From: Candidatus Lloydbacteria bacterium RIFCSPLOWO2_01_FULL_50_20
GTDB taxonomy: Bacteria; Patescibacteriota; Minisyncoccia; Phycocordibacterales; UBA6899
Direction of reading: 5' to 3'
Length of the DNA stretch: 37,572 bases
Assembly (NCBI GenBank): GCA_001821435.1
Contig: MHLP01000006.1
Coordinates: forward strand, 1-37,572
Below the pieces are notes generated by a model. That model did not search any database. It saw only the letters and a program-made list of their open reading frames with translations, and was not told the origin of the DNA. Positions 10,978 to 16,888 of this stretch are shown piece by piece. Numbering within the stretch: the stretch's first letter is position 1; each line of letters opens with the position of its first letter. A program made the position numbers and the translations under genes.

Positions 10978-11124
10978 GAATATGCGCGCTTCCCCACCCT
11001 TCGTTTGTTTCTTTTCGATGAGGTAATTCACACATCCTCCACAAAAATGGCGAGGAACTTCTGCATTCATCCTAGCAACGAAGTATGGGGTGTCAACGTA
11101 TAATTTGCTATAAAACAGCTCGTA

Positions 11125-11152
11125 TTGACAAATTTTTAGAAAAGAGTACAAT
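11125..11152 (+). promoter_or_regulatory. Sigma70-like promoter for the intergenic RNA
   Basis: TTGACA-16 nt-TACAAT directly upstream of the structured region. Confidence 0.7.
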
Positions 11153-11159
11153 GTCTTCA

Positions 11160-11534
11160 GAGTAAGCCGTTGATCGTTAAGGGGGTAACTCCCTTTTCTC
11201 TCCACTCTTTGCTGTGGTTTGCTTCCGCGGGTGCTTCCGGATACAAACAGCATAGCAATGAGGCTTTCGACCCTCCACACAGACTACATAAACGTAGGAA
11301 GTGGGAACCACCGAAAACAGGTTCGGCTTACCACCGATCCGTGGGGCGATCAACGGCTGAATTCCCGACGAGTATCGGGAGTTGTCACTGACCCGGGGCG
11401 GGGAAAGTGAGATGTGACAGATTTTTTTAAAAGTCTGTCATTTCTCACCCCGCCCCGGCAAGGTGCCTCGCCTAGAGGCTACGGCCAAAGGCAAAATGTT
11501 TTGCAAACAAAAACTTGCTCCGGCAAGTTTTTTT
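11160..11534 (+). ncRNA. Candidate structured non-coding RNA of unknown family
   Basis: Promoter upstream; perfect 12-bp helix AGCCGTTGATCG (11164-11175) / CGATCAACGGCT (11347-11358); many local hairpins; large hairpin 11392-11458; terminator 11512-11534; no plausible coding content. Confidence 0.6.
11512..11534 (+). terminator. Rho-independent terminator
   Basis: AACTTGC-tccg-GCAAGTT followed by T-run. Confidence 0.8.
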
Positions 11535-11595
11535 TATGACCAAGGAACATTTCGCTCAAAAATAACAATGCGCGGTAAAACAAAACTGTTGCACA

Positions 11596-11640: not shown

Positions 11641-14511
11641 TTAGACAGGATTCGGGAGGAAAGCCTCCCAATCAAACTTGAATCCGGCAAGCGCGAGCCT
11701 CGCGATCTGGTCATACCGGAGATACCTGAAGAGGAACGGAAGTTGCGGTCCCTCAGCCGGAATACCGATCCACGACACGCCCGAGTTATTCGGCGGAAAA
11801 CCGTGCTCACCATACCGGTCGGTATGGACGCCGGGGGCGCACATATGAAAGAGCTTTTGTGCGGTGATCCCCGTACCGAAGAAATGCTTATCGCCGAAAG
11901 TGGTGATGCAGTAGCGGCCTTCCATGATCCTCGTCGGGTTGCCCCGCAAAAGGTCATTAGAAATCGCACCGCCAACTGTGTCGCCCCAGCTTTTCATCCG
12001 GGTGGGTGAATCGCGGAGATCCATCCCCCACTCATAACCGCCATCAACGCGAACGGTACCCCACGCACAGAAAAAGTTCGAGTACATCGGATCCCGCACA
12101 AATTTCTGCACATACTCCCGATTCTTCTTCCAATAATTTTCCTGGAGAAGCATCGCACGCATGACCCGAGCGTACATGAAGCTTTCGGTGAGTCTTCGAT
12201 CGACAGTGCGCTCGAAGTGATTCCCTGTGCCCCAATTGATGATGCCGAGGTCGCGTCCGTCTTTCAGTTTGCCGTAATGCTCGGAGACCGGCTTAACGAC
12301 CACCCCGGACTCTTTGGCGCGACGCAAGATCGCGCTGTAGTAGTCCATATTGGGCTCCATGAAGCGATCGAGCATCTCTTCCACCTGAAGCTTCGGGTGG
12401 TCAAGGCCGAGAACATCCTGATGTTCAAGGCTAAACTGCTGATACTCATTGAAGAGCCGCAAACACTCGGCACCATTCGCTTTTTGCGCACGCTCATACA
12501 TCAAGCGGGAAATGTCCTCGACATCGGTCCGCGACAACTGCTGCGGATCGGGCTGGAAATGCCCTTCGAAGTGGTTTCCCTGGGTCGGGTCGTCGTTCGA
12601 GCTCCACACGTGGATCCCGAACTTTTTGCTTCCCAAGTATCCCGAAACGCGCATCGAGTGAATGACCGCCTCTGCCAGTCCCAGTCGCCTCCGCAATGCA
12701 TCGCACCAAACGTATTCTTTGGCGCGCGAGCCGATGTGCTTGTCAGTGTCGATCATGTACCAAGCATATCGAGCGGTTCCGAAGTCCGGGTACAAGACCT
12801 TGCTTTCATTAGCGCCTTTTTTCTTGAGAGCGATCAAGGAAAGCGGGCGCGTGAGCGGCCAAAAATCCTGAGCAACGATGTCTCCGTGATATCTGAAGAC
12901 GAGCGCGCCGGGCTTGAATTGATCGTTAAACACTGCCTGCTGGAGCGGATGCACCATACGGATCGTGCTCCGGAGTTCCCTGCGCAGATATTCATCATCG
13001 ATCAAGGTCGGCGCCACAAAGATCTGCACCGAATCCCGCTTGCCGTCATGATCCGCCTCACGCACCGTGTCGCGCTCTTGAAGAGCGAACGGGTGGCAGA
13101 TCACGGTCGTCTGCGCGATGTCCTTCCGCAGGATCTTGGGACCCGCCTTCCGCGCCGCAAAATCGGCAAGAAGGGCATCTGTCACCCGAATATGGGACGG
13201 GATATGGATCGCGATCGACGGTTTGTCGTTGATGCGCAAATGCGTCGAACCGAAGCCGACGATCTCGACGTTGGGCACGAGCTCCTGCAGCATCTTGAGA
13301 AAGAGCGAACGGAGTTTCGGCGCGAACCGATTGATCTCCTGCGCAGCAATAGCGGTCGTCACCGAGCGCGTATGCTGTTTCGTCTTCTTGTCGATCTCGT
13401 CTTCACAATGCTGATAGGTCTTCTTGTCGCCGTTCTTAAGGGCATGACGCTGAAGCACCAGCTGCGCTTGGATCTCTTGCTTCAAACGATTCTGTTTCCT
13501 GGTGCGCAAGTTGTTGATCGCATCGTACGTAAGCGTATTGATGAGGAGTTCGTCCATGTACCCAAGAACCATCACGATCTTCCCTGAATACTCGGGTTCG
13601 CTTTTTTTGCCCTCCTTATCGACGGGCTTGGTCATGACTTTGTAGAGCCCGGAGAACACGTTCGCCGCACGCTCGATCGGTGTCTCAAAAACGACTTCGT
13701 CATCAGGCCGCCTCTCGAGGATCAACTCCGCTTCTTTTCGATAATCCGGATCAAGGATCTCGGTGTTGATATCAAGCCCGGAAAGCCTTGCGCGATACAC
13801 TAAAAGTGCACCCGCGGCTTTTATGATCTGCAGCGCAAAGACATTCGTGAGCACGACAACGTCAACGCCGTGAGTTTCCGCCTCCGCAAGTTTCCGGCGG
13901 AGCGGGTTTAACTCGATGTCCGGGTTGTAACGCAAGCCCAAATTCGCACCGTTGAAGACCGCCCACTTCGGATCTTTCGCTTTAACGGAGATCCGGTGCG
14001 GCTCATTGAACGAGCTCTCGGGAAGCGTAATGTCCGGGATCTTGTCGAGCCACCCTTTTTCAAGATAGCCACCCATACCGGGAACCATGACAACGCTCGG
14101 CGTTTTGGATGAAACACCGCGGATCCATTTCGATCGCTCCTTCACCCACTCGAGCGGGATGTAGGAATGGATCTTTTGCCACTCTTCGATCGCGGCATTC
14201 CACTCACTCGGTGCCAGAGACCGCAGATAGTCTTTAAGAAGATCGTGGTTCTGTTTTGACCACACAACCCCCTTCACCAACTTCGTGAAGTGTCCGAGCG
14301 AAAGCGAAGATTTTTCTTTCGCAAGTTCATTCTTATGGGCCTCGATCACGCCCTTGTAGAGAGACTCGATGCCGCCCCTCGCGACCAGCGCGCCGCTTTC
14401 AACTTTCGTCATCACAAACTGACGCAATCCTTTGACTTCGGGAAAAGCCGCAAGCGCTGTCTTCCGTTTATTAATCATTATTCCCTCCTGGGGAGTGCTT
14501 TCAATGAACAA
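11641..14511 (-). CDS. Large (~950 aa) protein of unknown function; possible metallophosphoesterase-like C-terminal half
   Basis: Single long ORF; C-terminal motifs MIDTDKHIGS, SSNDDPTQGNHFE, TGNHFE, FGDKHF, GVHTDRYGEHG recall the calcineurin-like phosphoesterase motif order (weak). Confidence 0.55.
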   Translation of the reverse strand: MFIESTPQEGIMINKRKTALAAFPEVKGLRQFVMTKVESGALVARGGIESLYKGVIEAHKNELAKEKSSLSLGHFTKLVKGVVWSKQNHDLLKDYLRSLAPSEWNAAIEEWQKIHSYIPLEWVKERSKWIRGVSSKTPSVVMVPGMGGYLEKGWLDKIPDITLPESSFNEPHRISVKAKDPKWAVFNGANLGLRYNPDIELNPLRRKLAEAETHGVDVVVLTNVFALQIIKAAGALLVYRARLSGLDINTEILDPDYRKEAELILERRPDDEVVFETPIERAANVFSGLYKVMTKPVDKEGKKSEPEYSGKIVMVLGYMDELLINTLTYDAINNLRTRKQNRLKQEIQAQLVLQRHALKNGDKKTYQHCEDEIDKKTKQHTRSVTTAIAAQEINRFAPKLRSLFLKMLQELVPNVEIVGFGSTHLRINDKPSIAIHIPSHIRVTDALLADFAARKAGPKILRKDIAQTTVICHPFALQERDTVREADHDGKRDSVQIFVAPTLIDDEYLRRELRSTIRMVHPLQQAVFNDQFKPGALVFRYHGDIVAQDFWPLTRPLSLIALKKKGANESKVLYPDFGTARYAWYMIDTDKHIGSRAKEYVWCDALRRRLGLAEAVIHSMRVSGYLGSKKFGIHVWSSNDDPTQGNHFEGHFQPDPQQLSRTDVEDISRLMYERAQKANGAECLRLFNEYQQFSLEHQDVLGLDHPKLQVEEMLDRFMEPNMDYYSAILRRAKESGVVVKPVSEHYGKLKDGRDLGIINWGTGNHFERTVDRRLTESFMYARVMRAMLLQENYWKKNREYVQKFVRDPMYSNFFCAWGTVRVDGGYEWGMDLRDSPTRMKSWGDTVGGAISNDLLRGNPTRIMEGRYCITTFGDKHFFGTGITAQKLFHMCAPGVHTDRYGEHGFPPNNSGVSWIGIPAEGPQLPFLFRYLRYDQIARLALAGFKFDWEAFLPNPV

Positions 14512-16743: not shown

Positions 16744-16888
16744 TGTGGGCCAGAATGCCATGGGCGTAAGCCCGTGGATGAATGGCCACAGTGATAAGTG
16801 CGCGCGGTGGCGCGCTCCTATTCCAGAAAAACAACCCTGAAGCCACCCGTGAAATATCCCGCCCGTAAGGGCGGGATAGACGGGTGGC
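16744..16888. repeat. Two nested palindromes (families C and B)
   Basis: TGTGGGCCA..CCATGGGC-gtaa-GCCCGTGG..TGGCCACA; GCCACCCGtgaaaTATCCCGCCC-gtaa-GGGCGGGATAgaCGGGTGGC. Confidence 0.75.

Follow-up and report, generated by a model that had tools for sequence, protein, structure and literature searches.

The window analysed here comprises positions 1 to 37,572 of contig MHLP01000006.1 of Candidatus Lloydbacteria bacterium RIFCSPLOWO2_01_FULL_50_20, and all coordinates refer to it unless another locus is named. The region of interest lies between a divergent gene for an M3 peptidase and a convergent gene for a 956-aa protein (11641-14511, - strand). On the + strand, a sigma-70-type promoter precedes a segment rich in hairpins, which ends in a terminator-like structure. 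On the - strand, a promoter-like TTGACA-16-TAGGAT at 11069-11096 is directed at the M3-peptidase gene. The features of the + strand are the following.

11125-11152, + strand: sigma-70-type promoter TTGACA-16-TACAAT, matching the consensus at 11 of 12 positions.
11159-11461, + strand: conserved core of the predicted transcript, drawn from a 20-nt identity profile; 75% identity over 280 aligned bases with the ortholog (L025:1483-1768).
11165-11176, + strand: 5' strand of helix P1, perfectly paired in the window (with 11347-11358), but 4 of the 12 pairs are lost in the ortholog.
11179-11195, + strand: hairpin A (AAGGGGG/CUCCCUU), 7 pairs kept, one G-C changed to G-U.
11194-11203, + strand: C/U-rich stretch UUUUCUCUCC, invariant in both sequences, largely unpaired in the window and about half paired in the ortholog.
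11205-11262, + strand: hairpin B, the best-supported helix, with 6 double and 3 one-sided changes and no pair broken in the ortholog.
11231-11241, + strand: top of hairpin B, GUGCUUCCGGA, invariant.
11275-11304, + strand: hairpin C, with an invariant CCAC/GUGG base and an arm of variable length, 16 nt shorter in the ortholog.
11311-11326, + strand: hairpin E (CCGAA/UUCGG), weak: of three pairs tested, the ortholog has lost one.
11331-11344, + strand: hairpin F (CCAC/GUGG), overlapping the invariant UCCGUGGGGCGA; 4 pairs, one one-sided change.
11347-11358, + strand: 3' strand of helix P1, perfect in the window and degraded in the ortholog.
11363-11380, + strand: hairpin G (UCCCGA/UCGGGA), pairs invariant, loop variable.
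11393-11458, + strand: hairpin H, long, with a GC-rich base that is invariant or kept and a diverged upper stem.
11509-11535, + strand: intrinsic-terminator-like hairpin and U-run.

The promoter is present as the original prediction had described it, and both hexamers and the 16-nt spacing recur in the ortholog (TTGACA-16-TACAAC). The predicted terminator held in part: the hairpin AAAAACTTGC-TCCG-GCAAGTTTTT folds at 11509-11532, but it is absent from the list returned by a simple terminator scan. The ortholog ends differently, in an unrelated terminator-like hairpin with a run of seven T behind it at L025:1893. Measured against dinucleotide shuffles, folding reaches z -8.3 for the whole transcript and z -4.3 for the domain within the 12-bp repeat formed by P1, while the core scores z -8.1 in the window and z -5.2 in the ortholog. 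Good folding is likewise seen for the opposite strand (z -6.9 and -5.2), and the strand assignment therefore rests on the promoter, the terminator and the G-U pairs.

One homolog of the region was found when 98 related genomes were searched. It is located on G004:C14, which appears to be MHLS01000014 of Candidatus Lloydbacteria bacterium RIFCSPLOWO2_02_FULL_54_12, a member of the same genus. The downstream gene order is common to both loci and comprises the convergent 956/969-aa gene followed by EngB, a DsbA-like protein and DUF59, with one extra gene in the window. The upstream flank differs, being the divergent M3 peptidase in the window and a co-directional 222-aa ORF in the ortholog. For the same species pair, tmRNA is 80% identical, and the neighbouring proteins EngB, DUF59 and the adjacent 956-aa protein are 76%, 79% and 27% identical in amino acids, respectively. 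Along the alignment, the 20-nt profile gives 90% identity directly past the predicted start; where the core ends, after the long hairpin, it drops to about 30-45%. The RNA core thus appears to be conserved at close to the level of tmRNA. The promoter and the terminator-like end belong to the element itself, and its structure is kept in the ortholog (two sequences), as in a stand-alone structured ncRNA.

The local stems and the long hairpin that had been predicted from the window are part of the fold. In hairpin H, one double change falls in the GC-rich base and several in the upper stem. Hairpins A, C, F and G are preserved, but being nearly invariant they are of little informative value. When the structure is shifted by one or two columns, pairing falls from 96% to 39-52%; the covariation rests on two sequences, and the shuffle control was weak (55/500). 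Covariation was seen, in one ortholog, for hairpin B and parts of hairpin H, but not for the 12-bp helix, and the fold can be considered partly established. Among the invariant segments, UUUUCUCUCC has a mean unpaired probability of 0.68 in the window and 0.41 in the ortholog, and an ACAGGUU lies in and beside the loop of hairpin E. An alternative pairing, AACUCCC/GGGAGUU, joins 11187-11193 with 11377-11383, between hairpins A and G. The ortholog shows one compensatory change (C-G to U-A) and one lost pair in it, and this pairing could represent a switch or chance.

The original prediction had placed most weight on P1. The repeat is indeed perfect in the window, where it starts at 11165 rather than 11164 and has a pairing probability near 1, but its occurrence is not notable, since first-order random sequence is expected to contain about 1.03 such 12-mer repeats (spacing 100-400) in every 37.5 kb. 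Among random sequences of the size of the region, 14 of 5000 carried such a repeat. A second and longer perfect inverted repeat (14 bp) is found at 16800/17036 in the window, with a spacing of 200-odd bp. In the ortholog, 8 pairs of P1 are unchanged, 4 are broken and none shows a compensatory change, and forcing the helix costs about 6 kcal/mol relative to the free fold. The proposed long-range closure of the domain is therefore not supported. As P1 is partly broken in the ortholog yet almost fully paired in the window, it would be a peculiarity of the window's species or else have been added by chance.

In both species, a single + strand frame (76 and 71 codons) stays open over the core and has a shared stop. 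Its reading as a protein gene was rejected: amino-acid identity is 42% against 75% for the DNA, 94 of 214 aligned columns fall in shifted frames, and substitutions are flat over the codon positions (10/11/12). Nothing about the locus points to a protein gene, and it is apparently non-coding.

With Rfam 15, no match at the gathering threshold was obtained in the window or in the ortholog locus. A permissive search returned chance-type matches only, mostly of microRNA models on hairpin H. The region has no match to the models for RNase P RNA (RF00010) or SRP RNA (RF00169, RF01854), and ARAGORN found neither tRNA nor tmRNA in the window, the tmRNA of the genome being on C33; the hallmarks of these three RNAs had already been reported as missing. 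SRP cannot serve as a positive control, because the SRP models found nothing in this genome. The total length of the transcript is near the 350-400 nt of RNase P RNA, from which it differs in having no model match; in the genome that carries the ortholog, a separate RNase P RNA is encoded on G004:C65. The window's own genome (G000) gave no RF00010 match, and all four genus mates have an RNase P RNA. This absence may reflect an assembly gap (96.9% complete, 44 contigs).

A covariance model built from the two sequences recovered only the window and G004 copies among 297 relatives. No further believable copy was present among 387 genomes of the class, a set searched with the covariance model and partly overlapping the earlier one. 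The one weak full-length match, in G452 (19.9 bits), was discarded, as it falls within a long protein-coding ORF and is antisense to it. Pattern matches were also obtained in Mediterraneibacter and Opitutales, none of them backed by a believable match to the model, and phage records, plasmid records and viral contigs yielded no match. Within the genus, five species were sampled, and no copy was detected in three of them (G001-G003); a DNA search of this kind found tmRNA in G002 and G003, and not in G001 (81% complete). In G005 and G007, which belong to the same family, a homolog of the 956-aa protein is present and a DJ-1/PfpI-like gene takes the place of the RNA. The RNA gene looks accessory and lineage-restricted, a distribution that argues against 6S, SRP or RNase P.

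The interpretation that we consider moderately probable is a stand-alone ncRNA gene of about 375 nt on the + strand, bounded by a sigma-70 promoter and a terminator that both belong to it, with an RNA that would be transcribed and act in trans. The original prediction, that the segment from promoter to terminator may encode an undescribed ncRNA, has gained from the ortholog, which is conserved near the tmRNA level in the same gene order and shows covariation, and from the lack of an Rfam match. The RNA is probably a real, undescribed member of a known general kind, the orphan structured RNAs of bacteria. Classes of the OLE, ROOL, GOLLD and raiA type are structured, act as RNA, are intergenic and were found by genome comparison. 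OLE, ROOL, GOLLD and the raiA-motif RNA have been described as orphan stand-alone structured bacterial ncRNAs (PMC12286853, PMC11706538). Compared with OLE, ROOL and GOLLD, the RNA of the window is smaller; it is known from two species only and has no Rfam covariance match. In the open-access library searched, no paper combined Patescibacteria with structured RNA.

The RNA and the convergent 956-aa protein might also form one functional unit, in which the RNA binds, guides or regulates the protein. Both loci that bear the RNA carry the 956-aa gene convergently alongside, and the three genus mates that are devoid of the RNA are also devoid of a detected homolog of the protein. This co-occurrence rests on one shared locus, however. 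Each of the two genes has a terminator of its own, there is no overlap between them, and the RNA is missing from G005 and G007, which do have the protein; a joint unit is considered unlikely. The protein itself is an orphan and fast-evolving, has no match in Pfam, PADLOC or PDB, and its AlphaFold model (pLDDT 45) is too poor for use. By eye, metallophosphoesterase-like motifs (DLH, GNGNH, GDxH) were noted in the C-terminal half of its homologs. A further elaboration, a new RNA class of the CPR lineage that would form a ribonucleoprotein with the 956-aa family, the RNA staying near constant while the protein diverges fast, is a long shot.

A conserved intergenic relic, or conservation acting on the DNA itself through hairpins or protein-binding sites and yielding no functional transcript, would be in line with the good folding of both strands. 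It agrees poorly with a conservation near that of tmRNA and bounded by the promoter and the core ends, and with compensatory changes and strand-specific G-U pairs, and we regard it as quite improbable.

A 6S-like RNA had been put forward on the basis of the size of the closed domain. In its present form, the proposal is of a highly divergent 6S RNA binding RNA polymerase. In its favour, the fold of the window has a closing helix around a domain of comparable size, and RF00013 has no match elsewhere in the genome. The region itself gives no match to RF00013 even at E up to 5, though, the ortholog does not retain the closing helix, and the interior consists of separate hairpins instead of one rod with a central bubble. 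Moreover, three genus mates have no copy, though tmRNA was easily found in two of them. The 6S proposal was therefore abandoned as very unlikely.

A cis-acting leader or riboswitch of a neighbouring gene could likewise be strongly structured and have alternative pairings, as here between AACUCCC and GGGAGUU, but the arrangement of the locus makes this reading highly improbable. The terminator-like hairpin at 11509-11535 intervenes, and one has to go 3.1 kb further, to 14660, for the start of another substantial gene on the + strand. Of the two flanking genes, that for the M3 peptidase is divergent and is missing from this position in the ortholog locus, and that for the 956-aa protein is convergent. 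If the 12-bp repeat is taken for a1/a2 ends, a retron-like msr-msd RNA would explain a terminal inverted repeat around a hairpin-rich RNA, but with no reverse transcriptase among the scanned neighbouring proteins and the repeat degraded in the ortholog it can practically be set aside.

As a stand-alone ncRNA gene, the locus would be transcribed from its own promoter, from about 11159 to about 11535, and the product would act in trans, as RNA or as an RNA-protein particle. The covarying hairpins would provide a scaffold, and the invariant and at least partly unpaired segments, namely UUUUCUCUCC, ACAGGUU and the top of hairpin B, may be the contact sites. One suggestion, and no more than that, is that target mRNAs might be bound at their purine-rich ribosome-binding sites through pairing with the C/U-rich UUUUCUCUCC.

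P1 illustrates that, within such an RNA, a long and perfect inverted repeat may be conserved less than any other part. For the organism, the locus represents a candidate lineage-specific ncRNA of Lloydbacteria, a lineage of the Candidate Phyla Radiation, in a reduced genome of roughly 1 Mb.
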